The notes under the pieces are model-generated. The model made no database searches and was not told the DNA's origin. It worked only from the letters and a program-made list of their open reading frames with translations. From a virus, in the IMG/VR virus record IMGVR_UViG_3300028920_000022, positions 372,001-436,000 of that record: a DNA stretch of 64,000 nucleotides; one strand, given 5' to 3'. Below are positions 12,099 to 55,113 of the stretch, one piece after another (the stretch's first letter is position 1; the number at the start of each line of letters is the position of its first letter). A program made the translations under genes and the position numbers.

Positions 12099-13651
12099 AA
12101 AAAGTTAGAAAGCTTGTGGAAAAGCGTGGTGGAAAACTTTTAACGACCGAATATATTAATCAACACAAAAAGCTAGATGTTATTTGTGAAAAGGGACATT
12201 TATGGCACCCATCTGGAGAAGCATTACGAAAGGATCGTTGGTGTTCTTTTTGTCGTGGTAGCAGAATTAGCAAATCCAAAATAGATCCCAACAAAATATA
12301 CAAAATAAAGCAGGTAGCTAAGGAACGGGGAGGCGAATGTCTGTCGGATATTTATGTCAGTGCGTTGGCAAAATTAAAATTCAAGTGTAAAAATGGTCAC
12401 ATCTGGGAATCTAATTATAAATCTGTTTATAATAGAGGGTCTTGGTGTCCAATATGTTGTTTTAACCCCTCAATTTATCCCCAAAAGGGGGAAACATTTG
12501 TTCAGGCGTCACTAAAGCATGCAGCAAATATAGCCAAGAAAAGGGGTGGAAAATGTTTATCGATGGATGCTAAGACGTTGGGAAAATTAAGGTGGCGATG
12601 CGATCAGGGGCATGAGTGGAAAGCCACATATGCCAATGTTATTAATGGATCTTGGTGTCCCACATGTAAAATAACAATTTCCGAATACATTTGTAAGGGA
12701 TATTTGGAACACTTGTTTGGCGCTAAATTTTTAAAAATGAGACCACGATGGTTAAAAAACCCACACGGTGGATTATTAGAGTTGGATGGTTATTGTGAGG
12801 AGCTAGGTGTTGCCTTTGAGCATAACGGTAGGCAACATTATCATCAAGCGTGGTTTCAAACAGAATACGAATTTACCTCTCTTCAAAAACGCGATAAAGT
12901 AAAAAAAGAATTATGCGAACAAAACGGGGTTAAATTAATTATTATTCCAGCCATTGCTTATATGACTGAAATTGAGGATTTGCCCAAAGTAATAAAGGAA
13001 GAGTTTGTCAGGTTAAATATTAATAACATAAAAACATTTCCGCCGGTAAAAGAAGCAATAGACATTGATCAATATTATATGGTAAATTGGGATGATTATT
13101 TTGAGAAAATAAAGTCTATTATGGAATCGCATGGATGGGAGTGTTTATCCAAGGAATATAGGGGCGGTTTATATAAGTTAAAAATAAAATGCAATAAAGG
13201 ACATGTTTTTGACGAGTTTCCATGCAATATCAAAAAGTGGAAAGGGTGTCTAGAGTGTAAAAAAGAGAGAAACAGAGAGTCCATGCTTGTCAAAGCTTAC
13301 GCATTAGCAAAGAATCGGGGCGGAGAATGTTTATCTTCTGAATACAAAAACAACCATTCAAAGATGTTGTGGAAATGTAGTTGTGGCAATATTTGGGAAG
13401 CCAGTTACAATTGTATTCAGCGAGGAACGTGGTGTCCTCCATGTTCTATTATAAGGCGGGCAAACAAAAAACGACTGGGTATAGATGTTTATCAAAAAGC
13501 GGCGAAGAAAAAGGGAGGAAAATGTCTTTCCAAGGAAGTAAGTAGTTGTTTTGACGAGATAGAATTCGAGTGTGGGCAAGGACATAGATGGTTTGCGCGA
13601 GCGGATCAAGTGAAAAATACGGACAGCTGGTGTCCGAAATGCAACTACTAA
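12077..13651 (+). CDS. Vsr/EDxHD-like nuclease flanked by six zinc-finger repeats
   Basis: TTG start overlapping the PARP stop; an alternative is GTG at 12116. The 524-residue protein has three repeats of the form RGGxCLS...CxxGHxW...WCPxC, then a PD-(D/E)xK/Vsr-like domain at about 205-320 (LLELDGYCEELGVAFEHNG, RQHYHQAWF, KLIIIP), then three more repeats. This arrangement resembles EDxHD homing endonucleases of phages and giant viruses, with repeats likely used for DNA recognition. The gene is probably mobile, inserted between the PARP and the small-protein array. Confidence 0.72.
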   Translation: MREKWNIEKVRKLVEKRGGKLLTTEYINQHKKLDVICEKGHLWHPSGEALRKDRWCSFCRGSRISKSKIDPNKIYKIKQVAKERGGECLSDIYVSALAKLKFKCKNGHIWESNYKSVYNRGSWCPICCFNPSIYPQKGETFVQASLKHAANIAKKRGGKCLSMDAKTLGKLRWRCDQGHEWKATYANVINGSWCPTCKITISEYICKGYLEHLFGAKFLKMRPRWLKNPHGGLLELDGYCEELGVAFEHNGRQHYHQAWFQTEYEFTSLQKRDKVKKELCEQNGVKLIIIPAIAYMTEIEDLPKVIKEEFVRLNINNIKTFPPVKEAIDIDQYYMVNWDDYFEKIKSIMESHGWECLSKEYRGGLYKLKIKCNKGHVFDEFPCNIKKWKGCLECKKERNRESMLVKAYALAKNRGGECLSSEYKNNHSKMLWKCSCGNIWEASYNCIQRGTWCPPCSIIRRANKKRLGIDVYQKAAKKKGGKCLSKEVSSCFDEIEFECGQGHRWFARADQVKNTDSWCPKCNY

Positions 13652-13860
13652 CTGATTTTTTAACCAAGCGCGGACACACAATAGACACACCATTACATGG
13701 GGTTTGGCGTATTTTTTGCGTCAATTGTGAACATTATTTCTATTACGATGAAGAGGGCATTTGGTATGGGGTGGATCTTGGCAAGTATTCAATATATTTG
13801 CGATACGATATTAACCCGATACCATGCAAAGAATTAATCATTCGGGATATCATCAAATGA
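13639..13860 (+). CDS. IIK-tail CxxC family protein, array copy 1
   Basis: 73 residues from the ATG at 13639, which overlaps the nuclease stop; an upstream in-frame ATG at 13588 is less likely. Features: KRGH, a CVNCEHYFYY knuckle, and tail PCKELIIRDIIK. His plus CxxC plus the Cys before the tail could form one zinc site. Function unknown. Confidence 0.7.
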   Translation: MQLLTDFLTKRGHTIDTPLHGVWRIFCVNCEHYFYYDEEGIWYGVDLGKYSIYLRYDINPIPCKELIIRDIIK

Positions 13861-14135
13861 TCAACGAACTTAAAAACTTCAAACAGTTTTTGTGTAATTT
13901 AGGTCACATACTGGTCGAGTTTGATATTGGTAGCGTACCTATAGACCCTGATGGATATTTTAAACCAGGAACATATCTTAGATGTGTTGAATGTGATTAT
14001 ATTTTTTGTTTATTGGACGGGGAAAATCACACTGATGTTTGGCATTGTTTACACAGTTGTTTACCGGAATCTTGGAATAAATATACTGAGCAACAAACCT
14101 GCAAAGAGTTGATTATCAAAAGCATAATCAAATGA
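13857..14135 (+). CDS. IIK-tail CxxC family protein, array copy 2
   Basis: 92 residues; ATGA overlap with copy 1. Contains NLGH, CVECDYIFCLLDG and tail TCKELIIKSIIK. The extra loop between the CxxC and the tail is His/Cys-rich (WHCLHSCLPESW). Function unknown. Confidence 0.7.
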   Translation: MINELKNFKQFLCNLGHILVEFDIGSVPIDPDGYFKPGTYLRCVECDYIFCLLDGENHTDVWHCLHSCLPESWNKYTEQQTCKELIIKSIIK

Positions 14136-14431
14136 CCCACGAAGTAAAACAATTCATAAAGTTTTTGTCAGATTTGGGACACAAACCGTACAAGTTTGAT
14201 GTTTCAGCTGGTCTAAAATATGGACATTATTTCAAATGTAGTGAATGCGACTATGTTTTTTGCTTGTTATTAGAGAATTATGACGATACACATTATCACT
14301 ACAACTATGGAAGATATTGGTTTAGTTATTACCCAAGTTTTCCAGAAAGCTGGCGGTATAATAATTATGTGAACCCAGAATTGGAGCCAACAAGCTGTGC
14401 GGATATAATAATCAAAAACATAATAACATGA
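14132..14431 (+). CDS. IIK-tail CxxC family protein, array copy 3
   Basis: 99 residues, the longest copy; ATGA overlap. DLGHKPYKFDVS, CSECDYVFCLL, a His/Tyr-rich insert, and tail SCADIIIKNIIT ending in Thr instead of Lys/Glu. Function unknown. Confidence 0.7.
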   Translation: MTHEVKQFIKFLSDLGHKPYKFDVSAGLKYGHYFKCSECDYVFCLLLENYDDTHYHYNYGRYWFSYYPSFPESWRYNNYVNPELEPTSCADIIIKNIIT

Positions 14432-14697
14432 TTTCTTTCCAAAACCTATACAAACTAGGACACAAACTAAATACGTTTGATATTTCTAGTATAGTTTTAA
14501 CGGGTGTTCGGTTTAAACCTGGAATATATCTAAAATGCAGTGAGTGTGGACATATTTTCTATTTACTGAACAAAGCTAATTGTGATACAGATATTTGGTT
14601 TTGTGCGAGTAATGATATGCTTGATGGGTGGGATCTGTATAATCGCGGGAAACCGCCGACTTGCGATGAGTTAGTGATCAAAGAAATTATTAAATGA
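14428..14697 (+). CDS. IIK-tail CxxC family protein, array copy 4
   Basis: 89 residues; ATGA overlap. KLGHKLNTFDIS, CSECGHIFYLL, WFC..DGWDLYNRG and tail TCDELVIKEIIK. The motif WFxxxxxxxGWxxY recurs in copies 2, 4, 5 and 6. Confidence 0.7.
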   Translation: MISFQNLYKLGHKLNTFDISSIVLTGVRFKPGIYLKCSECGHIFYLLNKANCDTDIWFCASNDMLDGWDLYNRGKPPTCDELVIKEIIK

Positions 14698-14939
14698 CAG
14701 CTTTAGAAAAACTCCATATCGATGGGCACGACGTAGTAGAAACGGATCTTTCACACATACCACATTTAAATATAGGTTTTAATATTGGCAAGTATGTTTT
14801 GTGCAATAAGTGTGATCATATTTTTTGTGTTATAAATAATGATGTATGGTTTTGTGTTAGTCGCGAATTAATATATGGTTGGCGAAAATATAAAAAACAT
14901 ACGTGCAAAGAGCTTATTATTCAGGAAATTATCAAATGA
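14694..14939 (+). CDS. IIK-tail CxxC family protein, array copy 5
   Basis: 81 residues; ATGA overlap. DGHDVVETDLS, CNKCDHIFCVI, WFC...YGWRKY and tail TCKELIIQEIIK. Close relative of copies 4 and 6. Confidence 0.7.
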   Translation: MTALEKLHIDGHDVVETDLSHIPHLNIGFNIGKYVLCNKCDHIFCVINNDVWFCVSRELIYGWRKYKKHTCKELIIQEIIK

Positions 14940-15184
14940 TAACATTAGAAAGCCTGTCCACATTTGGTCATGAATTAACCGAGATAGACGTTTCTTCGCT
15001 AGAGTGGCTAAACTCCGGCACATATCTAAAATGTCAAAAATGCGATTATATTTTTTGTTTGTTGGATGGTGCAGAACAGAGTAGCGAGATTTGGTTTGGT
15101 AATGATTTAACTTACGGCTGGAAATTATACAACAATTTTCTGTACACTTGCGATGAATTAATAATCAAAGATGTTATCAAATGA
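14936..15184 (+). CDS. IIK-tail CxxC family protein, array copy 6
   Basis: 82 residues from the ATG overlapping the previous TGA (an earlier ATG at 14903 lies inside copy 5's tail). FGHELTEIDVS, CQKCDYIFCLLDG, tail TCDELIIKDVIK. Confidence 0.7.
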   Translation: MITLESLSTFGHELTEIDVSSLEWLNSGTYLKCQKCDYIFCLLDGAEQSSEIWFGNDLTYGWKLYNNFLYTCDELIIKDVIK

Positions 15185-15414
15185 GCCCAGAAGACGAAGT
15201 TAAGGAGATTCTTTCTGAGAAGGGACATAATATAATATTTGTGGAAGAATCAGTAAACGGAACTTGGTTTAAGTGTGTTAACTGTGGTTATTTTTTCCAC
15301 ATTTCTAAAAATAACATTACAATTTGGGTTTACGGAGAAAACATATATCCTTTTTTGTATGACCGTGATACAAATACCTGCAATGATTTTATCATCAAAA
15401 GCATAATTAAGTAA
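15181..15414 (+). CDS. IIK-tail CxxC family protein, array copy 7
   Basis: 77 residues; ATGA overlap. EKGHNIIFVEES, CVNCGYFFHIS, tail TCNDFIIKSIIK. Ends in TAA that overlaps the next ATG (TAATG), unlike the TGA used by most copies. Confidence 0.68.
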   Translation: MSPEDEVKEILSEKGHNIIFVEESVNGTWFKCVNCGYFFHISKNNITIWVYGENIYPFLYDRDTNTCNDFIIKSIIK

Positions 15415-15659
15415 TGGATTTTCATAATTTTCTGAAGGAAAGAAATCATACAGTTTCTTTTTATTGCGCCAAATACGATCAACAGTTTTTTGTTTGTTCA
15501 AAATGTGGATATTATTTTTATCAAAACGTGACTTTTAGGGATATAAATCAAATTTGGTTTTGCGATGACATTGACGGATGGTTTACGTTGTACAACGCCA
15601 CCGATGATAGGTTTAAACTAACTTGTGATGAGTTTATAATTATGGGTATTATAAAGTGA
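15414..15659 (+). CDS. IIK-tail CxxC family protein, array copy 8
   Basis: 81 residues. ERNHTVSFY replaces the GH, keeping His. CSKCGYYFYQN, tail TCDEFIIMGIIK with Met in the usual Lys position. Confidence 0.68.
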   Translation: MDFHNFLKERNHTVSFYCAKYDQQFFVCSKCGYYFYQNVTFRDINQIWFCDDIDGWFTLYNATDDRFKLTCDEFIIMGIIK

Positions 15660-15877
15660 TCAGTCAAGATTTTTATTCCACACTTTCTGCTTTGGGACAT
15701 AGTGTCACATTTGATTCTTCAATTATAAACGGGTTTTGGGTACGGTGTTTGAAATGCGATTGTTTATTCTATTGTGGGCAGGCGGAACAGAAAATTTTGA
15801 TAATTTTTGCTGATGGTTTTCAAGTATATAATGGAGAAACATGTTTAGAGTTGACTATTAAGGAAATCATCGAGTGA
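15656..15877 (+). CDS. IIK-tail CxxC family protein, array copy 9
   Basis: 73 residues from a GTG that overlaps the previous TGA. ALGHSVTFDSS, CLKCDCLFYCG, tail TCLELTIKEIIE. From here the terminal residue is mainly Glu. Confidence 0.66.
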   Translation: MISQDFYSTLSALGHSVTFDSSIINGFWVRCLKCDCLFYCGQAEQKILIIFADGFQVYNGETCLELTIKEIIE

Positions 15878-16122
15878 AAAATAGTTTAGAAGCGTTTCTT
15901 TCTGAACGTGGTCACAAAGTTATGGCGTGGGAATCAGAATCTCTTAAACACCTATCTCGTGGTGTATATGTAAAGTGTGTCAAATGTGAGTGCGTATTTG
16001 CTAAATTATTTAATAGTATAGAGTTTAATCGAATTTGGTTAAAGCCGGCAAAATTTTTCGGGTGGCAGGTATACGAGGCTGAGACTTGTGATGATATGAT
16101 TATTAAGGAAATAATTGAATGA
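15874..16122 (+). CDS. IIK-tail CxxC family protein, array copy 10
   Basis: 82 residues from a GTG start overlapping the previous TGA. ERGHKVMAWESE, CVKCECVFAKL, FFGWQVYEAE, tail TCDDMIIKEIIE. Confidence 0.66.
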   Translation: MKNSLEAFLSERGHKVMAWESESLKHLSRGVYVKCVKCECVFAKLFNSIEFNRIWLKPAKFFGWQVYEAETCDDMIIKEIIE

Positions 16123-16334
16123 TTACTAAACAGGAATTTTTGACCACGATTGCTCCGGCGGGACATTCTATCGAATGGTTTTCTGAAAATGTTTGTCACT
16201 GTGTAGTTTGTGGTTGTAGCTTTTTGGTCTCAAATAGTGGCTGGATGTTGATATCGATTGATGGTGGGCGAAATTATATTAACCACACCAACTTAACTTG
16301 CAGCCAATTAATAATACGAGCAATAATCGAATGA
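16119..16334 (+). CDS. IIK-tail CxxC family protein, array copy 11
   Basis: 71 residues, the shortest copy; ATGA overlap. PAGHSIEWFSE, CVVCGCSFLVS and tail TCSQLIIRAIIE. Confidence 0.66.
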   Translation: MITKQEFLTTIAPAGHSIEWFSENVCHCVVCGCSFLVSNSGWMLISIDGGRNYINHTNLTCSQLIIRAIIE

Positions 16335-16561
16335 AGAATTATCTGAAAACATATTTGCAAAGAAAAGGGCATAAAGATTTAGAATGTCGTTTCGAGAATG
16401 CAGACGGTGTTGTTTTTCTTTGTCGAGACTGTAGTTGGTTGTTTCTTTATGATGGTTCCAACATAGCTATACACGGGTTTACAAATATTGTCATGGTTGA
16501 TGATTATGATGACAATTCCCCCTCTTGCCAGGAACTAATAATCAGAGACATTGTCACCTAA
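16331..16561 (+). CDS. IIK-tail CxxC family protein, array copy 12
   Basis: 76 residues from the ATGA overlap at 16331. RKGHKDLECR, and CRDCSWLFLYDG for the CxxC strand. Tail SCQELIIRDIVT ends in Thr. Stop is TAA. Confidence 0.66.
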   Translation: MKNYLKTYLQRKGHKDLECRFENADGVVFLCRDCSWLFLYDGSNIAIHGFTNIVMVDDYDDNSPSCQELIIRDIVT

Positions 16562-27060: not shown

Positions 27061-27303
27061 ATGAGAAATCACAGTTTCATTCGGGTGGAAACACCACAAA
27101 GTTACTCCGCTCACAAAACAGCACAGTATTATAGATGTCAAAGATGTAATTTATTAATGTATGACACTGGCATTTCTCGTTACGTTTCTTGTCTGCATGA
27201 TACTGGCATTATGCCAACGCCGCTTATGTCGCCAGACACAATAGACTGTGAAATGCAAGAAATAATATGGAAAGAAGAAATTATTAAGGACATAATAGAA
27301 TGA
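27061..27303 (+). CDS. IIK-tail CxxC family protein, second subfamily (a)
   Basis: 80 residues with NHSFIRV, YYRCQRCNLLMYD and terminal EEIIKDIIE. The early His, CxxC strand and tail match the 13-gene array, but the knuckle is YYRCxRCNLL. It ends in ATGA with the following sister gene. Confidence 0.65.
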   Translation: MRNHSFIRVETPQSYSAHKTAQYYRCQRCNLLMYDTGISRYVSCLHDTGIMPTPLMSPDTIDCEMQEIIWKEEIIKDIIE

Positions 27304-27548
27304 AACTTGGCACCCACGATTTTGTTGAAATATGCGAACCTATAAATAGTCCAATTTTTAACGCAGAATGTCAATATTATCGATGTATACGATGTAATCT
27401 TTTGATTTATAAAAGTAAGCTTTATCATCCGGGAGAGTGTGTTACATCATTGGTAGAGAGTAGTAGAACAGTCTCACCAGATAGTATCAACTGTGCCGAA
27501 CAAGAGAAAAAGTTTCGGTTACAATCGATTAAGGACATAATAGAATGA
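27300..27548 (+). CDS. IIK-tail CxxC family protein, second subfamily (b)
   Basis: 82 residues: LGTHDFVEI, YYRCIRCNLLIYKS, PDSINCAEQ and tail LQSIKDIIE. A tandem sister of the preceding gene; PDTIDC/PDSINC recurs in both and in the gene at 50000. Confidence 0.65.
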   Translation: MKLGTHDFVEICEPINSPIFNAECQYYRCIRCNLLIYKSKLYHPGECVTSLVESSRTVSPDSINCAEQEKKFRLQSIKDIIE

Positions 27549-30006: not shown

Positions 30007-30254
30007 GTACAGAAAAAAAGATACGTAAGGTGCTCCGAAAAATCAAAACTGCTGATAATGTTTTGCAATCTGAAACCGATTGGGAGTTCAAATATAACAT
30101 AATTTTTGGAATGGGCATCGTTGATGATTTGAACAATATAGGAATTCAACTTAATTATTACGATCCTGACACAACCTACGAGGAAGATGTGAGAGCATTT
30201 GTAGAAGCGTTGAATTGCATTAGTGGCGATCTTGAAAAAGCGTTAATGTTATGA
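30003..30254 (+). CDS. Hypothetical 83-residue protein
   Basis: The ATG at 30003 overlaps the pncB stop (ATGA). Basic N-terminus, acidic helical C-terminus. No family recognised. Confidence 0.52.
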   Translation: MSTEKKIRKVLRKIKTADNVLQSETDWEFKYNIIFGMGIVDDLNNIGIQLNYYDPDTTYEEDVRAFVEALNCISGDLEKALML

Positions 30255-30508: not shown

Positions 30509-31020
30509 ACAATATGACCTCCGCCCAGCTATATGAGTTGGCAGAAAAAAAGAAAAAGGAAGAAGAATCCAGTTTTCTAATTGAACTGATGCGTAGTGAA
30601 TCAAAATTCAAGAAAAGCATAGAAGACAAGGTTCCAGCAAACACCTTATCATCGTTAGTCAAAACGTATAATACTGTTGTGGAAGGAGTTTCGTGGGATC
30701 AAGACGTTGTACTTAGAGTTACCGTTTCTACTAGTTTCTGGGCGGCTGTTAATGTTTCGTTAGAAAATAATTTATATTTTGAGTGGGAATGGTACAACTT
30801 AGAAGAAGTTGTCAATAAACAGTTAAATGAATGCGGAAAAAATAACAAAAAATTTCGTGATCTTACTAAGCGCATAGATGGTTTGAAAACAAAAATAAAA
30901 GAATGTGCCAAAAAGTACAAAGTGAAAGAAAAAGATTTGAAAAAATATTTAGAAAACTGTCGCAAAAAACCGCCTCCAACTTTCGAGTTAAATCAGCTTC
31001 CTCCAGGTACAACACTTTAG
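30490..31020 (+). CDS. Hypothetical helical protein
   Basis: 176 residues, Lys/Glu-rich helices at both ends around a hydrophobic/Trp-rich middle (FWAAVNVSLENNLYFEWEW), ending in a Pro-rich tail. No family recognised. Overlaps the membrane protein by 19 bases. Confidence 0.52.
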   Translation: MAKNEIDNMTSAQLYELAEKKKKEEESSFLIELMRSESKFKKSIEDKVPANTLSSLVKTYNTVVEGVSWDQDVVLRVTVSTSFWAAVNVSLENNLYFEWEWYNLEEVVNKQLNECGKNNKKFRDLTKRIDGLKTKIKECAKKYKVKEKDLKKYLENCRKKPPPTFELNQLPPGTTL

Positions 31021-31033
31021 GAAAAAAAATACT

Positions 31034-32050
31034 ATGTCAAAGCGAAATCTGGTTAAGTCTCGTGTTCGTGGAGCTATTTTGGGAACCGCAATTGGAGACG
31101 CCCTAGGTGCTCCATTTGAAATGATGGAAAAAGAACAAATACATAACCTATTGCCGGTTCCGTGGACATGGGGACAACAGCAGAAGGGTATAGTGTTTTC
31201 CGAAAACTTTGCTCATCCAAATCTAGGAATCGGTCAATGGACCGATGATACTCAATTAATGCGCACTATTTTGTGGTCGATTATTGACGATCATGCCATT
31301 GATCCATATGGTATTGCTAAATATACCAGTGAGGTTTTTGAGAAAGAACAGCTTCGAGGATGGAGCAAATCCGTAATTTCTGCAGCAAAACGACTTTCTC
31401 GTGGGGTTCCGTGGTACGATTCTGCCAACGAATCCATCGGTATTGGCAACGGTATCGCCATGAAAGCTGCTCCTTTGGGTATTTACCTGGCTAAATACCT
31501 GAAAAACGATTACAACTATTCTACCCATGAGTTTGGCGCCAACCTTAGACATGCCATTGTGTCTATTGTTGGTGTAGGACAAATTACCCACCATGAGCTG
31601 GGAATCATGGGTGGCGTAATGCAAAGTGTCTTAGTTGGTCTTTCGTTCAATAATGTCAAGAACAAGAAGTTGATTCTTAAGGTTCTGGGCAATATTGAAA
31701 AGGAATTTTCTGGTGCCACACGGTTTACAGATAAGCTAAGAATTGCGCTAAAATACAATAGTATTGCGGATGTGGCTGATAATATTGGAACAGACAGCAA
31801 GGCAGACAAATCCTGGGTAACTGCAGCTGCTGTTTTTCTCAACACCAAGAGGCGCAGTGATGCTGCAAAACGCATGATGGAGCTAATCTGCCAGGGCGGC
31901 GATTGTGATACTACCGGAGCAATGTTCGGAGCCTTAGCTGGAGCCCGTTGGGGAATTTCTGCTTTTCCCACGAATCTCAGGAAAGAAGTCGAGGCAAGCA
32001 AGGAACTGTTAAAGTTAGCAGATGGTTTGTATGGAGTGGTTTCTACTTGA
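31034..32050 (+). CDS. ADP-ribosylglycohydrolase (DraG/ARH family)
   Basis: The 338-residue product has the ARH signatures: GAILGTAIGDALGAPFE near the start, GQWTDDTQLM (TDDTQ at 70-74, Mg ligands) and GGDCDTTGAMFGALAGARWG near residues 288-307. These coordinate the two Mg ions that hydrolyse ADP-ribosyl bonds on proteins or O-acetyl-ADP-ribose. With two PARPs and an ART-like protein in the same window it is the likely eraser. AGGA ribosome-binding site. Confidence 0.9.
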   Translation: MSKRNLVKSRVRGAILGTAIGDALGAPFEMMEKEQIHNLLPVPWTWGQQQKGIVFSENFAHPNLGIGQWTDDTQLMRTILWSIIDDHAIDPYGIAKYTSEVFEKEQLRGWSKSVISAAKRLSRGVPWYDSANESIGIGNGIAMKAAPLGIYLAKYLKNDYNYSTHEFGANLRHAIVSIVGVGQITHHELGIMGGVMQSVLVGLSFNNVKNKKLILKVLGNIEKEFSGATRFTDKLRIALKYNSIADVADNIGTDSKADKSWVTAAAVFLNTKRRSDAAKRMMELICQGGDCDTTGAMFGALAGARWGISAFPTNLRKEVEASKELLKLADGLYGVVST

Positions 32051-32226
32051 AAACCGGTGATTTTGTTGTTGTGGGGAAGGGGAATGAGGTCGAATTGCTG
32101 CGAATTTCGGGTGGAAAAATATACGTTTTAGGCAAACTGGTTAATACCCAAAAACAACAAACTGAGGCATTGGCATTTATGTTGGCGTCGCCTATGTTTC
32201 AACCCAACGAATATGAACCAAGTTGA
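32047..32226 (+). CDS. Small hypothetical protein (59 residues)
   Basis: TTG start overlapping the ADP-ribosylglycohydrolase stop (TTGA). The product is a small beta-barrel-like sequence (GDFVVVGKGNEVELLRISGG). The frame is also open upstream inside the previous gene, but no better start exists. Overlaps the next ATG. Confidence 0.48.
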   Translation: MKTGDFVVVGKGNEVELLRISGGKIYVLGKLVNTQKQQTEALAFMLASPMFQPNEYEPS

Positions 32227-32920
32227 GACCCTTAAAAGAATTCACCAAAGCAGGGGAGCCAATGGGTTTCTGGTAGATCTATATGGCGATTCTACGCCGG
32301 TTCCGTATGGGTGTGAAGCAAAACACCCATTAAATGCCACTTTGGCAGTTCACATGTTGGCACAAACAAGAATACCCGTATATGTGGTTTCTTATGAAGG
32401 ACAATTGCCCCACAAGAAAAAGAATTTTCTTGTACGATACGGGTCTTCGAGGATTAACGGATCTTTATCGCCAGAATCCTGGGAATCATTAATAACGTGC
32501 GCTAATTCGTATAATCTAGTTGTTGCAGGAGTATTGGACAAATGTGAGCTTGAACTTTTAAGGAACTGGGATCATTTTACCTTGATTGCCGATGCGTTTC
32601 TATTTCAGGACTATATGAAGTCAGAAATAGAGGCTATGTATCAGGAAAACATGGACCTTACCCAATCTTATGAAAAAGAGGTATGGGAAGGTCGTCCTAA
32701 ACAGGATGACACAATAAAAGACTTAGATATTACTTACAAAGAATTGGAGTGGGCATATACCAACAACCAGCGCACGCATATTTTAGACGGTGGTGATCCT
32801 GCAAAAAATGACAAGTGGTTTAAGTACACTGGAAGGCAGAAAAAGGTGCTGTCTAAGGTGTACAATATAGAAAGATCTACACGTTATAAAAAGCCATATT
32901 TGTATGACCAAAAAGTATGA
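32213..32920 (+). CDS. Hypothetical 235-residue protein upstream of helicase
   Basis: The first 130 residues look like an alpha/beta Rossmann-type or ParB/sulfiredoxin-like fold (LYGDSTPVPYGCEAKHPLNA, IPVYVVSYEGQL); the rest is helical and basic. It overlaps the helicase start by 17 bases and may be its partner. No firm family. Confidence 0.5.
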   Translation: MNQVETLKRIHQSRGANGFLVDLYGDSTPVPYGCEAKHPLNATLAVHMLAQTRIPVYVVSYEGQLPHKKKNFLVRYGSSRINGSLSPESWESLITCANSYNLVVAGVLDKCELELLRNWDHFTLIADAFLFQDYMKSEIEAMYQENMDLTQSYEKEVWEGRPKQDDTIKDLDITYKELEWAYTNNQRTHILDGGDPAKNDKWFKYTGRQKKVLSKVYNIERSTRYKKPYLYDQKV

Positions 32921-34898
32921 AAAACGCCGTTATCAAGAGAGAACGGTTGAAGCGTTTAAACAGTGGTTTCCCAGTGATGAGAAGCTGGCTACTATTATAT
33001 TACCCACAGGCGCAGGAAAAAGTTTTGTTACAGCGTTGTGTTTGTCCAACGTCCCAGATAAAAAAATTCTTTGGGTAGCACACAGAGAAGAATTAATCAG
33101 TCAAGCACAGGACACGTTAGAAGAGGTTATTGAAAATCGTATTATAGACCGGGAAATGGCGGAGTATAAAGCTTCGTATCAAGCGGATATTATTGTAGGT
33201 TCTGTACAAACGCTTGCCAGAAAGCGTAAACATTTGGATAAATTTATTCCAGACATTATCGTTGTAGATGAATACCATCATCGTTCGGAAAAAAACGTTA
33301 CATACCAGGGTTTATTAGAAAGATTCCCGGAAGCTAAAGTTGTAGGACTTACAGCCACCCCATGGAGATTTTCTGGGGACCCACTTCCTTTAGGTGAAGT
33401 CCTATTTGATATGGACATTGGTACCGCCGTTGCTCATGGCTATTTAGTACCACCAAAACCAGAAGTTCTTAAATCAAACACTAGCCTAGCAAACGTTAAA
33501 ACTAGAATGGGCGATTTTGCTATTAAGGATTTATCTAACGCTGTAAATAATGAGAAAAGAAACCTTTTAATTGCTAAAAAAGTTTTAGAATACATTAAAG
33601 ATGATAAAAGGCAAGGTATATTGTTTGGCGTTGATGTTGCCCACGCCCATACGATGTATGAGCTTTTAAAGAATGATTGTAGGGCAATTGAAATATACGG
33701 AGACACTGATAAAGATGAACGTCGTTACAACATGGAAAAGTTACGTAATGGTGATGTTGACATCCTGATCAATAATCTTTGCGGGACCGAGGGGTTTGAT
33801 GTTCCTCATCTTTCCTTTGCTGCAATTGCAAGACCAACCAGATCTCTAGGTTTATATATTCAAATGGCTGGTCGTGTATTAAGAACCTCTCCAAACAAAA
33901 CTGATGCTATAATACTAGACATCTTTGATAAAATTAAGGTAAAACAGTCGCGAGCAACGTTTGTTGATATGGCAGCAGAGGGAGATTTATATGGGGAAAG
34001 AAAACGTGCCACTAGCTTGCTAGATGCAGAACTGGATGTTAAAAAGGTATCAAAAGGTTCTAGACCCGGCAAAGATGATGGCAAATATGCTAAAACGCTT
34101 GAACACTTTCCCGTGTTTATGCTTAAAAATGAAAACGATCGTTGGACGGCAGATGATGATTTTTTGCCCGTGACTTCTTGGGCTATTGCTACAGATCAGA
34201 GAATTGTTACTTGGACCGAAGAAGAGTTTGACCAAGATCTCCTAACCAAAGAAAAATATTCAGCATTCCTACGAAAACCCACACCATCCCAATGTAGGGA
34301 AAGAACGATAATAGTAAAACATGATAGGTTCGGAAAAGGTACAATTATAGACGACGGTATTGGAATTGAAGTAAGAGTTGAATTTCCTGCCACCGGTTGG
34401 AGACCAGAAAGACGCCTTTACATTCCTATTCATGACCTAAAACAACACGGTATAGTAAAGGAAATCAATCCTAATCCTAAAAAACGAAAAGTAGATAAGC
34501 TGTTCTATTTCTGTTTTCCTTCCGGAGCAGCACAGGGAAGAGTTATCGAAATGACCCGGGATAAATGGGAACTTATTGTTGACTCGGATCAAAAAATGAC
34601 CCTGGATGAAGCAAAATTCTTTATTGTCAAAAAAGCCAAAGACGCCGGAGTATTACCGCTGGTACGTTCTGATGCTTATTGGAAAAAAGCTACCGCCAGC
34701 GATAAACAAAAGGATTTATTAAAGAATTGGATAAAAGGCGGCAAGGTTGGTTTTGACCTTGATACCTCTGATGTAAGTAAAGGTGAGGCATCTGCAGTAA
34801 TTGATCAGTTAAAGTGGCAAACATTGATTAATAGAAAGTTTGGAACCAAATCTAAAGAGAAACTGTTAGGTTACGACAGATCTGCTGAAGATGTATAG
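32904..34898 (+). CDS. Superfamily 2 helicase (type III restriction/RecQ-like DEAD/H)
   Basis: The 664-residue product has Walker A LPTGAGKS (33-40), Walker B VVDEYHH (121-126), motif III GLTATPWR (148-155), and a C-terminal helicase domain with INNLCGTEGFDVP and motif VI QMAGRVLR. An extra 250-residue C-terminal part includes a possible SH3-like strand region (RFGKGTIIDDGIG). It should unwind or translocate on nucleic acid; the motif set resembles DEAH-box phage and UvsW/RadD-type helicases. Confidence 0.87.
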   Translation: MTKKYEKRRYQERTVEAFKQWFPSDEKLATIILPTGAGKSFVTALCLSNVPDKKILWVAHREELISQAQDTLEEVIENRIIDREMAEYKASYQADIIVGSVQTLARKRKHLDKFIPDIIVVDEYHHRSEKNVTYQGLLERFPEAKVVGLTATPWRFSGDPLPLGEVLFDMDIGTAVAHGYLVPPKPEVLKSNTSLANVKTRMGDFAIKDLSNAVNNEKRNLLIAKKVLEYIKDDKRQGILFGVDVAHAHTMYELLKNDCRAIEIYGDTDKDERRYNMEKLRNGDVDILINNLCGTEGFDVPHLSFAAIARPTRSLGLYIQMAGRVLRTSPNKTDAIILDIFDKIKVKQSRATFVDMAAEGDLYGERKRATSLLDAELDVKKVSKGSRPGKDDGKYAKTLEHFPVFMLKNENDRWTADDDFLPVTSWAIATDQRIVTWTEEEFDQDLLTKEKYSAFLRKPTPSQCRERTIIVKHDRFGKGTIIDDGIGIEVRVEFPATGWRPERRLYIPIHDLKQHGIVKEINPNPKKRKVDKLFYFCFPSGAAQGRVIEMTRDKWELIVDSDQKMTLDEAKFFIVKKAKDAGVLPLVRSDAYWKKATASDKQKDLLKNWIKGGKVGFDLDTSDVSKGEASAVIDQLKWQTLINRKFGTKSKEKLLGYDRSAEDV

Positions 34899-42092: not shown

Positions 42093-42424
42093 TGCGCTTT
42101 CCTCATCACTATGGACTTAAATTCTGGCGGACCACCAATCACAACAACATCTTCAGCATTATACTGGCATGGAACTTTTTCAAACCATAAGTTATCAAAA
42201 ACTGTATCTGTACTTGGGCTTCCTATAATATATGAGTTGAATACACGTATCGTTATTGGGTTAATTTGTGAGTAAGGAAACGCAAAGTTAGCCTTAAAGA
42301 CATGTTTAAGTCTGCATATATCAAAACGAATAATATCGCTAAAGAACAGATTATTGTCTCTCCACAGATTTCTGGCGGTACCGACAATCACCCCTTCACA
42401 TTCAATTAGAATGTTTGTTGACAT
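42089..42424 (-). CDS. Hypothetical 111-residue protein
   Basis: ATGA overlap with the amidase gene. Beta-rich (NILIECEGVIVGTARNLW, NPITIRVFNSYIIG). No family recognised; lacks the IIK tail of its upstream neighbour. Confidence 0.52.
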   Translation of the reverse strand: MSTNILIECEGVIVGTARNLWRDNNLFFSDIIRFDICRLKHVFKANFAFPYSQINPITIRVFNSYIIGSPSTDTVFDNLWFEKVPCQYNAEDVVVIGGPPEFKSIVMRKAQ

Positions 42425-42690
42425 TATTGTATTATGTTTTTTATAACGTATTCGTCACAAGAATACAAATCACCAACACAAGAATATAAATCACCAACAT
42501 ATATAATGTTATTTTCTGTTTTTAAACTGCACGCGAAAAACCCACACTTTTTACATTGATATTGTATAGCAACCTCAAACACATTATTATCTATAACCTC
42601 AAAATCATGTGTGCTTAATTTTTCATTATTTATGGGATAATGATTCCACCGTCTTTTTATGATTTCGGAAATATTAATTTTGTGCATCAC
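42424..42690 (-). CDS. IIK-tail CxxC family protein with internal duplication
   Basis: 88 residues: STHDFEVI, IQYQCKKCGFFACSL and terminal SCDEYVIKNIIQ. A 21-bp tandem duplication (42456-42476 and 42477-42497) repeats GDLYSCV just before the tail. It belongs to the THDF/YYRC-type subfamily. Confidence 0.62.
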   Translation of the reverse strand: MMHKINISEIIKRRWNHYPINNEKLSTHDFEVIDNNVFEVAIQYQCKKCGFFACSLKTENNIIYVGDLYSCVGDLYSCDEYVIKNIIQ

Positions 42691-43548: not shown

Positions 43549-43980
43549 CTACACAATTATATCCTCAATAACCACATCATCGTCGGTGTACGAACAAGGA
43601 ATTGTCCACCACTCTAGTGCTTCATTTAGAACTGCATTTCCGCTGGGATGATAACAAGAACCACCAGCAATACTTTTCAAATATGGAACTACTATTTGCT
43701 CACCTTGGATGGCGCTAGCATGCAAATGTTTACCGGGGTTAGTTGAAGCCAATATTCTACATTTTTTGCATATACAACTATATTCTCCAAAATTCCATAT
43801 TGTTGTTGCACTAACCGACCTGCCTTTTACAATAATCTGTGCCAAATCGTGTTTTTCGTCAAACTCACCGTAACGCAAACTTGTTACACATCCTTTTGAA
43901 TCACGTGCATACCAACGAACCCCACACTTCACACAGAAATCATAAGTCATTCCGTTATAACTAAATTGATGCGGTTTCAT
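43549..43980 (-). CDS. IIK-tail protein, long member
   Basis: The ATG at 43980 shares its A with the preceding TAA; 143 residues. FCVKCGVRWYA, CICKKCRI, HPSG and the terminal DDDVVIEDIIV. It has two CxxC units and the hydrophobic tail, so it looks like an extended relative of the small-protein family. Confidence 0.58.
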   Translation of the reverse strand: MKPHQFSYNGMTYDFCVKCGVRWYARDSKGCVTSLRYGEFDEKHDLAQIIVKGRSVSATTIWNFGEYSCICKKCRILASTNPGKHLHASAIQGEQIVVPYLKSIAGGSCYHPSGNAVLNEALEWWTIPCSYTDDDVVIEDIIV

Positions 43981-44639
43981 TATTTTAGGAATTCGTAATC
44001 CCAATTTTCCGTATCATCGTATAGTTTTTCGTATAATCCACGCAATTCCATTTTTATATTTCTTTCCGCTTTGTTATAATACTTTTCTTGAAAATACATC
44101 GTATAGAAAATTGGTCCTTTCAATATGCGCTCCAACAACGCCGCTCTTCCTAAAGCAAAATCCCGTGGCGATACATTGGTTCTGGAATACTCTTTGATAA
44201 TTCCTTTGCGGTACTGTTCATATTCCTCTTCCCCCGCCCCTAAAATTGACATATCTACATCGGCAACAATCTTTGCTTCTGCCCTTTCTGGCTCTAAATC
44301 GTGCTTTGTTGCAATAATGAATTCGGCAGTGTCGTTTATTAATTTCTGATCAGATTTTCCTGCCATCAAACACACTCTAGCGATTGCTGCACTTTTCTCT
44401 TCGTTTTCCGTACCAAGAGGATCCAAAATGATATCGTGGAACCAAATAGCCATCAGTGTGTTTTTTAAATCTAGTTTTTCCGCAATACCACTTAATTCCT
44501 GTCGGCATCGTAATATATGGTTTAGGTTGTGATAAGCTCTTCCTTCGTACATCAGTTCAATCGAACGCCATATACTTAAAACACAATTAACGTCAAGTCC
44601 CAGCGTATTCCAATCTTCTTTGAAAATATCCTCTTCCAT
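43980..44639 (-). CDS. HD superfamily phosphohydrolase (COG4339-like)
   Basis: 219 residues. YEGRAYHNLNHILRC, AIWFHDIILDP (HD pair), NEEKSAAIA and VADVDMSILG are the hallmarks of the predicted metal-dependent HD hydrolases. Likely hydrolyses a nucleotide or similar phosphoester; substrate not known. Confidence 0.8.
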   Translation of the reverse strand: MEEDIFKEDWNTLGLDVNCVLSIWRSIELMYEGRAYHNLNHILRCRQELSGIAEKLDLKNTLMAIWFHDIILDPLGTENEEKSAAIARVCLMAGKSDQKLINDTAEFIIATKHDLEPERAEAKIVADVDMSILGAGEEEYEQYRKGIIKEYSRTNVSPRDFALGRAALLERILKGPIFYTMYFQEKYYNKAERNIKMELRGLYEKLYDDTENWDYEFLK

Positions 44640-45873: not shown

Positions 45874-46371
45874 TTAATACCAACTTTTTTCAGGAGTTTC
45901 CCAATCGAAAAATACCGTGTCGCAAATTAATGAAAAGATTCTATCCTGTGGAGGAAGGGTGTCGACTTCATATTTTACGTCTAATCGTGCACATTTATTT
46001 TCCAATCGTTTAATATCACGATTGAAAACGTTTAGCTTCGTTTGCGTTTTCTTTGCAACCGCCTTTAGAACTTCAGAACCGATGTGAACATCCGCATCTT
46101 CCTGATCCATATCCAACCTAGCAGTCATTCCATCATCCCAAACCAGATAAGTCGTTATATCGACACTAGTTTTAACGTTTACTTGACAAGATATTTTTTG
46201 CGGTTCAGATAAACGTAAACATTCCCGAATAAGCGGATATAACTCGGTTTTCGTTGGCGCCTTTAAATCTTCTTTTTCTAGTTTTTCTATTACTGCATCA
46301 TAAACAGCTCTAGGTCTCTGGTTTTTGTTTAGGTATTTGATTCCTTTGCCAAACGAAAAATCCATGCTCAT
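45874..46371 (-). CDS. Hypothetical partner of the AAA ATPase
   Basis: 165 residues; ATGA overlap with the ATPase gene. Helical N-terminus, beta-rich middle (ISCQVNVKTSVDITTYLVWDD). No family recognised. Its strict coupling suggests a substrate adaptor or cofactor of the ATPase. Confidence 0.52.
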   Translation of the reverse strand: MSMDFSFGKGIKYLNKNQRPRAVYDAVIEKLEKEDLKAPTKTELYPLIRECLRLSEPQKISCQVNVKTSVDITTYLVWDDGMTARLDMDQEDADVHIGSEVLKAVAKKTQTKLNVFNRDIKRLENKCARLDVKYEVDTLPPQDRIFSLICDTVFFDWETPEKSWY

Positions 46372-47189
46372 TCCTCTCCCTCAATCTCATCACCCATGTT
46401 CTGTAACCGTACTATCGCTTCCCGATAGTCCGTATCAAAAAACGCCACAGATATGAATAACTCCTTCAAATGAGCTAAACTTAATCCCTCGGAATCTTTT
46501 GACCACACATCAATGGGAAGTTGACTAAAATCCTCAGATTGATTTATTAAATGCTGTAAATAAGCAAATCTCACCTTTTCACTAGGATACCCAATCTCTA
46601 CACACCGATCAAATCTGCTCGGTCTGTCCTTTATTCGCCCAGCTAATGCCCCAATGTTGTTCGTTGTAGCTAAAAACACTACCTTGTCATATCCACCAAT
46701 TCCATCCAACATGTTGAGAATGTCAGATTCGTCATAATACTCCAGCAAATGATCTATATCTTCCATCACTACTACTATGGGAGTCTCCGGTTGAACATTC
46801 CTAAATGACCCCATGTTGGCGGTAAAAACATTATAATTTTTGCAAAGAACCCCTATTCCTCCAGCCGCCACTACATCATTTAATATCATCTTGATCGCAC
46901 AGCTTTTGCCAGTCCCGTGCGGTCCATAAAATAAAATCCCCCGCCTAAATGTAAAATTGTTTCGCCTGAATAATTCTTCTTTTTTCCAAAATGACGATAT
47001 TTCTTTTACTATTTCATCGATTATTGAATCTTCAAATTTAACTAAATCTGTGTTTTCTTCAATTTTAGATAGATAAGCCTCTCCCATCCCGTTGGCAGAC
47101 GGTAAGTATATCCCAGATGGCAGATTCTCAAATTTAGTGTGCTCTTGCCTGGGAAAAAAATCTATGTTGTTCTTGGTCTGCCAGTGCAT
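46368..47189 (-). CDS. AAA+ ATPase (BCS1/CDC48-like module)
   Basis: 273 residues. Walker A GPHGTGKS (89-96), Walker B VVVMEDID (139-146), sensor LATTNN, and arginine-finger region RPSRFDR. A single AAA module with an 80-residue N-terminal region, like BCS1-type or FtsH-like remodelling ATPases. A TTGACT with a TAGGAT-like -10 lies 35-60 bases upstream of the ATG. Confidence 0.82.
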   Translation of the reverse strand: MHWQTKNNIDFFPRQEHTKFENLPSGIYLPSANGMGEAYLSKIEENTDLVKFEDSIIDEIVKEISSFWKKEELFRRNNFTFRRGILFYGPHGTGKSCAIKMILNDVVAAGGIGVLCKNYNVFTANMGSFRNVQPETPIVVVMEDIDHLLEYYDESDILNMLDGIGGYDKVVFLATTNNIGALAGRIKDRPSRFDRCVEIGYPSEKVRFAYLQHLINQSEDFSQLPIDVWSKDSEGLSLAHLKELFISVAFFDTDYREAIVRLQNMGDEIEGEE

Positions 47190-49999: not shown

Positions 50000-50254
50000 T
50001 TATGTAATTATGTTCTGAATTATAAAATCATTACAATTTATTTGTTCAGGATTCAATGCCGTAGCAATACTTATCTGAGAAATATAAAAATTTATTTCAT
50101 TTTGAAATATTCCTTTAAATATTATTAATCCGCAATTCTGGCATTGCCAATATTTTGGACGAATATCGTTAATCAAATTAATACCATCATTAAGTTTTGC
50201 AACCTCTTCTGCTGTTAACTCCTTCAGTTCGTGTGTACCTATTTTGAGACTCAT
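50000..50254 (-). CDS. IIK-tail CxxC family protein, second subfamily (c)
   Basis: 84 residues: IGTHELKEL, YWQCQNCGLIIFKG, NPEQINCND and tail FIIQNIIT. The layout matches the pair at 27061-27548. ATGA overlap with the upstream gene, which carries the same tail on an unrelated body. Confidence 0.65.
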   Translation of the reverse strand: MSLKIGTHELKELTAEEVAKLNDGINLINDIRPKYWQCQNCGLIIFKGIFQNEINFYISQISIATALNPEQINCNDFIIQNIIT

Positions 50255-50658
50255 TCTATTATATCTTTGATTATTTTTTCATTTTCGGTTAAAAATTCTT
50301 CTCTATACACGTTATCTGCTACCCACGATACTCTTAAAGAATTGCTATGAGAATATCCAGTTAAGATAGCGTTACAAACATGGGTAATATATTTTTTATG
50401 ATTTTCTTTCCAACCGAACATAAAATGAAATTTATTATCCACACTGGTTCCACGAAAACGTTCTTTTACAAAATGTTCGATATCAAAGTTTTCGTCAAAT
50501 AAAATCAAACCTTCTAATTCACCATGAACATCTTCATATCTTCCGCAATATTCGACGGTCATGGTGAGGCTATAAGCCCAACCGATAATTTCTTCGTTGT
50601 ACAGTACTTGAACACTATTCGATAATGTAGCGAATGTCGATATTAGTTCTACAGGCAT
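50251..50658 (-). CDS. Hypothetical protein carrying the IIK tail
   Basis: 135 residues. The body is a beta-rich domain without CxxC (LTMTVEYCGRYEDVHGELEG, KFHFMFGWKENHKKYI) and the protein ends NEKIIKDIIE. The tail is thus attached to a different fold. Start overlaps the upstream gene by 44 bases; a shorter start is possible. Confidence 0.58.
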   Translation of the reverse strand: MPVELISTFATLSNSVQVLYNEEIIGWAYSLTMTVEYCGRYEDVHGELEGLILFDENFDIEHFVKERFRGTSVDNKFHFMFGWKENHKKYITHVCNAILTGYSHSNSLRVSWVADNVYREEFLTENEKIIKDIIE

Positions 50659-51001
50659 CGCACAGAGTACGATGCCAGCTTAATTCGTCTCGAAGTTTTC
50701 CTGGTTTACCACAATCTTCGCAAACGTGGTCGCTTTTATTTTCGGCTTCCATAACCAAATCTTGAACTATTTTAATTTCTTGTTCCGTTACATTTGGGTA
50801 ACTTAAATATCTATAACCAAATCTCAAACCTCCCAACTTTTCTTTAATGTAGGTAGCTTCAATTTTAATATCTGTTTTTTGAATTTCTATACATAATTCA
50901 CGCAGGAGTTCGTACCAACCATCTCCGCACCCTATGTAGACGTGGGATACAAAGATTTTGGGGAATTCTTGACGCAATTTGTCGGTTAATTCTGGGCTCA
51001 T
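50615..51001 (-). CDS. Phage zinc-binding protein with IIE tail
   Basis: 128 residues. DGWYELLRELCIEIQ, EKLGGLRFGYRYL and CEDCGKPGKLR...TLCDACR define a recurrent phage protein of unknown function. In this copy the C-terminus continues NIDIRYIIE, the same type of hydrophobic end as its neighbours. ATGA overlap upstream. Confidence 0.62.
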   Translation of the reverse strand: MSPELTDKLRQEFPKIFVSHVYIGCGDGWYELLRELCIEIQKTDIKIEATYIKEKLGGLRFGYRYLSYPNVTEQEIKIVQDLVMEAENKSDHVCEDCGKPGKLRDELSWHRTLCDACRTNIDIRYIIE

Positions 51002-51432
51002 TCTATTATATCCTTAATGATACGTTCGTTTTCGTTTTTTTCTACGTCTTGTGGAAGGAACTTGTAAATTATAAACATGCATGGTTCGGTCAAAATATTC
51101 TTTGCATTACACTTTTCTAAAATGTCAAAAATAATAATTATAATAATAGGCAGTAAAACTATTGGATATGCCCACAAAAGTAAAAACAGAATTATCGGCG
51201 GGTATTCTTTGAAAAAACCATTAATACCAGCCTGGACATCTGTTTTGTATATTTTGTCGCCTGCGTGTAATTCTATTTTGTATATCATTTCTGTAAGTAT
51301 AAATGCCAAACAAAAAGGGAATCCCATAAGATACATAGTCAGCAATCCCCACGGCATAGGGGACAATTTAGCAACTCCCATGCCGGCGAGGAAGAAAATG
51401 ATGCTACCTATTAGAAAGTTTCTTATTTTCAT
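50998..51432 (-). CDS. Membrane protein carrying the IIK tail
   Basis: 144 residues with four hydrophobic segments (LIGSIIFFLAGMGVA, LLTMYLMGFPFCLAFILTEM, PPIILFLLLWAYPIVLLPII and following) and a soluble C-terminal tail ending NERIIKDIIE. The tail is identical in pattern to that of soluble zinc proteins, here presumably on the cytoplasmic side. Confidence 0.62.
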   Translation of the reverse strand: MKIRNFLIGSIIFFLAGMGVAKLSPMPWGLLTMYLMGFPFCLAFILTEMIYKIELHAGDKIYKTDVQAGINGFFKEYPPIILFLLLWAYPIVLLPIIIIIIFDILEKCNAKNILTEPCMFIIYKFLPQDVEKNENERIIKDIIE

Positions 51433-53149: not shown

Positions 53150-53656
53150 CTACGTTATATACTGTCGGAAACTCTTATAGTCCCCAAACTCTTGCCTAAT
53201 TTCTTTCAAAACTTTTTCTTGGTTGCCGCCAACATATTTCTTTAACAAATAGGCAACCAAATCATCCTGAGCAATTTCTTTTAGTTGACACAGTGGACAC
53301 CGTTCGCTGGGAAGATCATATCCACTACTTTCTGGCTCATACAGATCATTAATAGCATCTTCGTGATCTTTATATAGCTCTTCGATTACATCGTCTCCTG
53401 CTGATTCGAGCATTTTTAATTTGACGTCATCGTGGCGAAATATTTGATTTAGATCTGCACGTTTTCCCTCAAGTGACAGATCTCTTTCTATTTCCTCGCC
53501 GGGGAGCAAATATTCTGCCAAAAACTCATGTCCGCAAACACATTCGGCAGTAGGTTCCTCATATTCTCCATCCCAGCCCGCAAGTGTAATTCCGCTTACT
53601 TGGCATGTGAAGCTGCTAGAACTGCTGTTAGAAACGAATCCTGTTCTTATTTTCAC
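53150..53656 (-). CDS. SNSSSSSF-tag family protein 1
   Basis: 168 residues starting MKIRTGFVSNSSSSSF. A CVCGHEFL unit, an acidic helical middle and CPLCQLKEI follow. The closest relatives are the two genes at 54023 and 54544, which share the CGH/CNGH and CPxC spacing. Function unknown; the N-terminal tag recurs in prokaryotic proteins but I know no role for it. Confidence 0.65.
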   Translation of the reverse strand: MKIRTGFVSNSSSSSFTCQVSGITLAGWDGEYEEPTAECVCGHEFLAEYLLPGEEIERDLSLEGKRADLNQIFRHDDVKLKMLESAGDDVIEELYKDHEDAINDLYEPESSGYDLPSERCPLCQLKEIAQDDLVAYLLKKYVGGNQEKVLKEIRQEFGDYKSFRQYIT

Positions 53657-53657
53657 G

Positions 53658-54026
53658 CTAATATCCTCCTTCGTGTTCCATTATGAAATCTTCGGTACGT
53701 ATGTTCAAATCGGTATTACACAGTAACGATTCTACTTCTTCTCCACCATTACCACAATCATCAAAACTTCCGATATAAACGAATTTGCCCTTTTTCTTTA
53801 ATTCTTCTTGGTATTCTGGCTCGTAATAATTCCAGTCTTCAGAATCTTGACACAATTTTGCTTTAGTAAAAATGGTATCAATTATTTCTGAAATCACCTC
53901 ACGTAGTGGGTGTCGTTTAGTGACACCGAAAGATTTGATTAGCATCTGTTTTGTAAGTTTTCGTTTTGTAACAATAACGAAAGATGAGGAAGATGAATTA
54001 GAAACGAATCCTGTACGTATTTTCAC
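53658..54026 (-). CDS. SNSSSSSF-tag family protein 2
   Basis: 122 residues starting with the same 16-residue tag MKIRTGFVSNSSSSSF, but the body is different (VIVTKRKLTKQMLIKSF, FVYIGSFDDCGNGGEEV) and lacks the zinc knuckles. The tag is therefore shared across unrelated bodies. ATGA overlap upstream. Confidence 0.65.
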   Translation of the reverse strand: MKIRTGFVSNSSSSSFVIVTKRKLTKQMLIKSFGVTKRHPLREVISEIIDTIFTKAKLCQDSEDWNYYEPEYQEELKKKGKFVYIGSFDDCGNGGEEVESLLCNTDLNIRTEDFIMEHEGGY

Positions 54027-54547
54027 AGCTCTACCTTTTCCACATATTTTGCAAACTCTTTATACGAAGAAAAACGGGAGAATATTTCCTTATCAACAGC
54101 TTCTAAAGTGCCCTTGTCTCCCAGTAATTCTTTTACTAGAAAGCGTATTCTGTCATTTATAGCGATTTTTTCAAAATGACAAATGGGACAACAAGTAGAC
54201 GGCAGCTCATAAAATCTATATTCTCCCCAGGAATCACTTAATGCGTCGTTTAGCGAACCGATAGAATTATCGAAAATTCTATTTATAGCAGCATCATCAA
54301 GTTCGTCGCCATAATCGCAAAAATACCGACTCAACTCTTCAGAGGTTAGAAATTCTTTCTTTTCATCGGTGGTTAGATTTTTATCCAGCTTTCTCACAAA
54401 GTTGGGAGCAAAGGCGTGACCACAAAGACATTCCATTGGATAAAAGTCTTCATATTCGCCGTCACGTCCGGAAGTAACATCCCCACTTATCTGACATACG
54501 AAACTACTGGAACTACTATTTGAAACAAAACTGGTACGTATTTTCAT
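54023..54547 (-). CDS. SNSSSSSF-tag family protein 3
   Basis: 174 residues; tag MKIRTSFVSNSSSSSF, then CQISG, CLCGHAFAPN and CCPICHFEKIA. Paralogue of proteins 1 and 4. ATGA overlaps on both sides. Confidence 0.65.
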   Translation of the reverse strand: MKIRTSFVSNSSSSSFVCQISGDVTSGRDGEYEDFYPMECLCGHAFAPNFVRKLDKNLTTDEKKEFLTSEELSRYFCDYGDELDDAAINRIFDNSIGSLNDALSDSWGEYRFYELPSTCCPICHFEKIAINDRIRFLVKELLGDKGTLEAVDKEIFSRFSSYKEFAKYVEKVEL

Positions 54548-55113
54548 TTTTTATTGTCCATTGCTTTTTTGAAGGCACTATACGTGCCGAATTTATTTCG
54601 TAGTTCTTTTATGACAGTTTTTCTGGCACGTCTTCCCAACAGGTATTTCAGCAACTCATCATCTGGCACATCATCAAAAGCACAAACTGGGCACATGAAC
54701 CCAGGAAGTTCGCCAATGTATGAATCGTACTTATCTTTTTGAGCATTTATGTGGCTCAAGAAAGATTTTGTATTTAGGTGCGTAAATGCCTCATCTATTT
54801 TAGCATCGGCTCGTTTTTTGTTATATCCCCACATTTTGTTTACGAGGTTATGTCCGTCTTCTGACAGTATTTCGGTATCGAAATCGCCGTCAACTTCAAA
54901 AGCCAAGGAAATCATCTGCCACTTATCTTCCGAGGACATATTACGTGGTATTTCACACTTAATATATTCGTAAAGAAAGTTGTGTCCATTACAGCAACTT
55001 GCCATCGGTGGACCATCCCAACATCCATGGGAATTCACGCTAGTGGTACCGCTAATATCGCAAGTGTAACTTGAGGAGCTAGAATTTGAAACAAAACCCA
55101 ATCTAATCTTCAT
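54544..55113 (-). CDS. SNSSSSSF-tag family protein 4
   Basis: 189 residues; tag MKIRLGFVSNSSSSSY with Tyr at the end, then CDISG, CCNGHNFLYEY and MCPVCAFDD. Paralogue of 1 and 3. First of the four in transcription order. Confidence 0.65.
   Translation of the reverse strand: MKIRLGFVSNSSSSSYTCDISGTTSVNSHGCWDGPPMASCCNGHNFLYEYIKCEIPRNMSSEDKWQMISLAFEVDGDFDTEILSEDGHNLVNKMWGYNKKRADAKIDEAFTHLNTKSFLSHINAQKDKYDSYIGELPGFMCPVCAFDDVPDDELLKYLLGRRARKTVIKELRNKFGTYSAFKKAMDNKK

Follow-up and report, generated by a model that had tools for sequence, protein, structure and literature searches.

About one gene in six or seven in each of two large giant-phage records ends in the same peptide, a strictly C-terminal, transferable and selected unit of approximately 13 residues that is carried by more than 100 different accessory proteins per large record. 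The window analysed here (the whole stretch of 64,000 nucleotides) spans positions 372001-436000 of a giant-phage record of 458,729 bp, in which scoring of the C-terminus of every open reading frame assigned the tag to approximately 150 of approximately 850 genes: 147 were recognized by a 12-residue profile, and 150 with a 7-residue core, which added the weaker tag of the gene at 50615. Because genes were called mechanically as the longest open reading frames, these counts are uncertain by a few per cent. At the score cut-off (11 or more), a complete scan of internal positions in the proteins of the tagged genome yielded 12 matches in 143,095 windows, compared with the approximately 150 C-termini, and a second internal scan at the tag score yielded 7 in 132,295; the rarity of internal matches indicates that the tag sequence belongs to the extreme C-terminus and is not due to chance. 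The tagged genes are accessory genes, and none were found among the structural genes. Scans of 84,980 bacterial and archaeal genomes returned isolated matches only, with no stretch bearing several tags, and a text search of open-licence papers found no report of such a tag.

The tag has the consensus L[ST]xx[ED]-Φ-[IM]-I-[KR]-[DE]-I-I-[EK]-COOH. Among the 147 tags of this genome, position -12 is T or S in 97, -9 is E or D in 136, -6 is I in 132, -5 is K or R in 112, -4 is E or D in 105, -3 is I in 121, -2 is I in 139, and -1 is E, K or T in 130. A cysteine at -11 is present in 101 of 124 proteins with a CxxC motif versus 2 of 23 without (p = 2e-11), and is assigned to the body because it tracks the CxxC proteins. 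The S/T-x-x-E/D start of the tag resembles a helix N-cap, and AlphaFold predicts a helix at the tag in two tagged families: residues 71-80 of 81 in the first (gene 14694..14939; mean pLDDT 84 for these residues) and residues 141-154 of 155 in the second.

Twenty tagged genes lie in the window (Table 1), including a rightward array of 12 that spans 13588-16561. The first-pass annotation had named four of the twenty, consecutive leftward genes ending in FIIQNIIT, KIIKDIIE, DIRYIIE and RIIKDIIE; all four endings are present where it placed them, and its description of four different bodies (one with CxxC, one without, a zinc protein with phage homologues, and one with three hydrophobic segments) matches the translations. 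The second of these proteins has no family match, and its gene has an ATGA overlap with the next gene. The ending of the zinc protein is the weakest of the four, matching at the last seven positions only (score 12.6); comparison with its homologues had been proposed as a check on whether the tail is an added extension, and those in other huge phages and in a related 435-kb phage end differently. Elsewhere in the window, four consecutive leftward genes (53150-55113) have different bodies behind a common N-terminus, MKIR.[GS]FVSNSSSSS[FY], which is found on six proteins of this genome and on none in the related phages examined. Of the AAA+ ATPases of this phage, at least three in number, one (PF00004) is encoded at window positions 46368-47189 on the leftward strand.

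Table 1. Tagged genes of the 64-kb window, in window coordinates.
Position	Strand	Length (aa)	C-terminal residues	Tag codons	Description
13588..13860	+				Array tagged gene (first of 12)
13824..14135	+				Array tagged gene
14132..14431	+				Array tagged gene
14428..14697	+				Array tagged gene
14694..14939	+				Array tagged gene; predicted (AlphaFold) tag helix 71-80 from last zinc-ligand-like Cys
14903..15184	+				Array tagged gene
15181..15414	+				Array tagged gene
15414..15659	+				Array tagged gene
15656..15877	+				Array tagged gene
15874..16122	+				Array tagged gene
16119..16334	+				Array tagged gene
16298..16561	+				Array tagged gene (last of 12)
27061..27303	+	80	WKEEIIKDIIE		Tagged gene
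27300..27548	+	82	FRLQSIKDIIE		Tagged gene
42424..42690	-	88	SCDEYVIKNIIQ		CxxC type; tagged relative in 435-kb phage
43549..44004	-	151	YTDDDVVIEDIIV		Relative in 435-kb phage ends LTEDEAMIKDLIL
50000..50254	-	84	NDFIIQNIIT	50003-50041	CxxC/HCCC zinc-type protein
50251..50658	-	135	LTENEKIIKDIIE	50254-50292	Protein without CxxC
50615..51001	-	128	RTNIDIRYIIE	50618-50656	Zinc protein; weaker, core-only tag
50998..51432	-	144	KNENERIIKDIIE	51001-51039	Putative three-segment membrane protein

Over all records, 343 tagged proteins were collected, of which an iterated profile of the bodies only placed 170 in a single small family of zinc type (H, CxxC, C). The other 173 form 122 clusters by phmmer; clustering at the BLAST level gave 202 groups and overcounts diverged families. 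Among the non-zinc bodies are repeat proteins of the DUF4116 type (10 with Pfam matches; one cluster has 21 members), one DUF7448 protein, several proteins with hydrophobic membrane-like segments and an HTH protein (phrog_1381); Pfam and PHROG scans gave matches for few body families only. Comparison of the zinc family fold with the PDB and BFVD gave no significant match, and the family is absent from the huge phages that have homologues of the zinc protein at 50615. The first-pass annotation had accepted that tails shown to be buried structural helices would refute it, and on this point the outcome is divided: in the zinc family the predicted domain is compact and its last helix is formed by the tag, which may also pack on that domain, but the same seven residues occur on unrelated folds, so packing alone is insufficient as an explanation.

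The related phages are metagenome records, mostly fragments, and were found by a looser degenerate DNA pattern of the tail and then a second pattern, earlier viral scans having found none. They comprise IMGVR_UViG_3300027740_000003 (435 kb, 112 tagged genes), IMGVR_UViG_3300031673_000209 (38 kb, 23 tagged genes), two fragments from metagenome 3300005577 (131 kb and 85 kb, with 25 and 19 tagged genes) and two from metagenome 3300020203 (29 kb and 43 kb, with 10 and 7); besides the 435-kb record, the tag is present in fragments of at least two more lineages. Core genes are common to the tagged phages at approximately 45% amino-acid identity, and 230 untagged genes of this genome match the 435-kb phage. 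Among proteins of at least 60 residues, a homologue of the body is present in the 435-kb phage for 2 of 145 tagged proteins versus 229 of 617 untagged ones (p = 7e-23). Tagged bodies are thus almost never shared between phages, which argues that the tag outlives the bodies. In the 131-kb relative, ten genes between 44331 and 131072 have a second common ending, [TAN][DN][EK]EWIIFQIIN, on an MTKVYSK-type paralogous group.

Among cultured phages, the closest relative detected is Bacillus phage G, with tail proteins that are 25-29% identical; the zinc family is absent from it. In the 400 kb of phage G examined, no four-residue C-terminal pattern occurs more than 8 times, versus 51 times for the commonest here and 94 in the 435-kb phage. 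Phage G resembles the tagged phages in that approximately 24 of its proteins have a common C-terminal motif, YWKENDRYLAKIL, but these form one paralogous cluster, often with further residues after the motif, and the sequence is not that of the tag. The YWKENDRYLAKIL proteins are encoded at 26123-33106 and 352560-371001 and have CxxC-bearing and other N-terminal parts; by analogy, their ending is perhaps a comparable tag.

Position -4 of the tag is specific to the phage. It is D in 102 of 112 tags of the 435-kb phage (34 of 42 on CxxC-bearing bodies and 68 of 70 on others), N in 32 of 44 tags of a third lineage (25 of 35 and 7 of 9, respectively), and E or D in the 458,729-bp phage (p = 3e-25 and 5e-16); the specificity is seen in zinc and non-zinc bodies alike. 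At this position, different bodies agree within one phage, whereas bodies of one kind differ from phage to phage. Most simply, each phage would have one reader, as yet unidentified, to which all its tags are matched, although duplication and recombination that spread one tag through each phage could account for part of the coherence.

The DUF7448 protein is, on sequence comparison, the clearest case in which the tag demonstrably lengthens a protein whose homologues lack it: in the 435-kb phage, this protein shares 53% identity with Pseudomonas phage proteins of 125 residues, which stop exactly before its last 13 residues, LSEAEKIAKDIIE. The tag is also absent from the DUF4116 homologues that were checked, those of Salicola phage SCTP-2 and Agrobacterium phage Atu_ph07. 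The DUF4116-type proteins of SCTP-2 have in common the N-terminus MK[VI]KHITQYLFES (for example, L119:14526-15932, 22423-23757 and 26733-27464), which is reminiscent of T4 capsid targeting peptides. Within this genome, 145 of 147 tags differ in their 21-base sequence. When homologous tagged proteins were compared in 63 disjoint pairs, the amino acid had changed at 22.7% of codons in the tag versus 50.3% in the body, and where it had not, a different codon was used at 37% of positions in the tag and 36% in the body; as judged from these substitutions, selection acts on the tag peptide and not on the DNA. The earlier proposal that the shared end is a transferable C-terminal tag is therefore supported by the unrelated bodies, the untagged homologues outside and conservation as peptide rather than DNA.

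Selection at the peptide level, together with the phage-specific residue at -4, points to a docking tag with one common partner per phage. On a narrow balance of probability, the tag is considered to be a C-terminal docking label for such a partner, with the bodies giving specificity; the partner is unidentified, and there are no data from cells. The tag would be a short helix, its C-terminus free, and would dock on one common phage or host protein. Specificity would be supplied by the bodies with fast turnover (zinc-type modules, DUF4116 repeats and membrane proteins), although the target of no body is known, and the constant tail would carry each body, with whatever that body binds, to the same place or machine. 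Since the bodies look like fast-evolving binding modules, adaptor logic is the preferred form of this proposal; only tentatively, and at less than even confidence, it can be extended to a phage-wide system in which more than 100 binders per genome would deliver targets to one phage-defined machine or compartment by means of lineage-matched pairs of tag and reader. The poxvirus ankyrin/F-box (PRANC) proteins are similar in being large viral families with a variable body, often of repeats, and a constant C-terminal docking part (PMC9414399). Their C-terminal part is a domain of 40-50 residues with a known partner, Skp1/Cul1, whereas the phage tag has approximately 13 residues, an unidentified partner and many folds in front of it, and no Pfam match to a PRANC or F-box domain was found in 216 tagged proteins. 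The phage-nucleus import (PicA) pathway also sorts many phage proteins selectively, but is reported to do so via surface recognition, without a terminal signal sequence (PMC11087766).

It is unlikely that the tag instead brings accessory proteins into the prohead (scaffold or core) for injection with the DNA, but this possibility stays open because giant phages load many proteins by terminal signals: tens of head proteins are packaged by giant phages, and T4 internal proteins are packaged by a terminal peptide of 10-20 residues (PMC5694885). The signal-like N-terminal peptide of the SCTP-2 DUF4116 proteins, where those of the present phages have the C-terminal tag, would also be consistent with head targeting. 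The T4 capsid targeting sequence and the giant-phage head propeptides are likewise short terminal peptides on otherwise different phage proteins; however, they are N-terminal and are removed by cleavage behind a Glu-ending motif (A-x-E in SPN3US; PMC5694885), whereas the tag forms the true, gene-encoded C-terminus, and its last residue is E, K, T or Q, to which no single cleavage rule applies. A search for a prohead protease, limited to the Peptidase_S78 family, found none, and the structural genes, as stated above, include no tagged gene.

Self-association, by which tags would bundle together and tagged proteins would co-assemble without a separate reader, is doubtful. It would account for both the spread of the tag onto unrelated bodies and its coherence within each phage, and isoleucines at -7, -6, -3 and -2 with charged residues between them would be compatible with it, but the hydrophobic moment is merely moderate (mean 0.41, versus 0.30 in random segments) and the tag is short for a stable bundle.

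A degron role, in which the free C-terminus would be recognized by an AAA+ protease of phage or host and the tagged proteins would be cleared at a set time, is disfavoured and carries little weight, without being excluded. The strict C-terminal position fits unfoldases, AAA+ ATPases are encoded by the 458,729-bp phage, and each of the three lineages for which enough sequence exists has a canonical ClpP (E = 1e-53 to 1e-61), but ClpP is as common in huge phages that lack the tag (6 of 7) and was rejected as the specific reader on that ground, and there is no ClpX/ClpA-type AAA_2 match in the 458,729-bp or the 435-kb genome. The ssrA/tmRNA tag and other C-terminal degrons are likewise short C-terminal peptides on many different proteins; the phage tag differs in being encoded by the genes themselves and in ending in IIE or IIK rather than the AA of ssrA-type endings. 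The tmRNA of the 435-kb phage (L096:312-649) encodes a tag peptide of the usual AA-ending type, ANDNADLTAAAA, which ends LTAAAA, unlike IKDIIE; a tmRNA tag was rejected as the explanation on this difference in sequence.

The canonical ClpP belongs to the core genome of this phage (160353-161009, +; L016:4353-5009) and adjoins a DksA/TraR-type zinc-finger protein (159929-160282), a pair that recurs in the 435-kb and 131-kb relatives. Possible stop-codon-reading tRNAs were also observed, with anticodon tta here and cta in the 435-kb phage (L029:4588-4662, L098:12187-12260). A link of the tag to suppressor tRNAs was rejected, the stop codons of tagged genes being not unusual once ATGA overlaps are removed.

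Common descent, with all tagged proteins forming one fast-diverging family of which the C-terminus is the best-conserved structural part, is very improbable: one zinc-type family does account for 170 of the 343 bodies, and the -11 cysteine does accompany CxxC bodies, but that family has no relationship to the DUF4116 proteins, the membrane proteins or the HTH protein (phrog_1381), DUF7448 proteins elsewhere end before the tag, and the single-family hypothesis was rejected on DUF7448, DUF4116 and the clustering. Hardly tenable is a DNA-level element (a TATAAT promoter-like sequence, a recombination site or ATGA translational coupling) that encodes IIE by chance, for although ATGA overlaps end 93 of 147 tagged versus 137 of 700 untagged genes of this genome, GATATAATAGAATGA occurs seven times in it, and the ATA codon is favoured at -3, some tags lack any overlapping gene, and all three forms were rejected by the codon analysis (the diversity of 21-base sequences and the equal silent changes in tag and bodies).

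In giant phages, most small genes are without known function, and the tag sorts a large block of them into one system. Retention of the tag while the bodies turn over provides a handle for finding the hub of that system, for the reader of the tag would be expected to bind more than 100 proteins per phage. If the reader proves to be a machine or a compartment, the tag would constitute a terminal sorting code in bacteriophages, whose best-studied compartment, the phage nucleus, is reported to use no such code. Another possible use of the tag is as a means of steering cargo within cells infected by phage.
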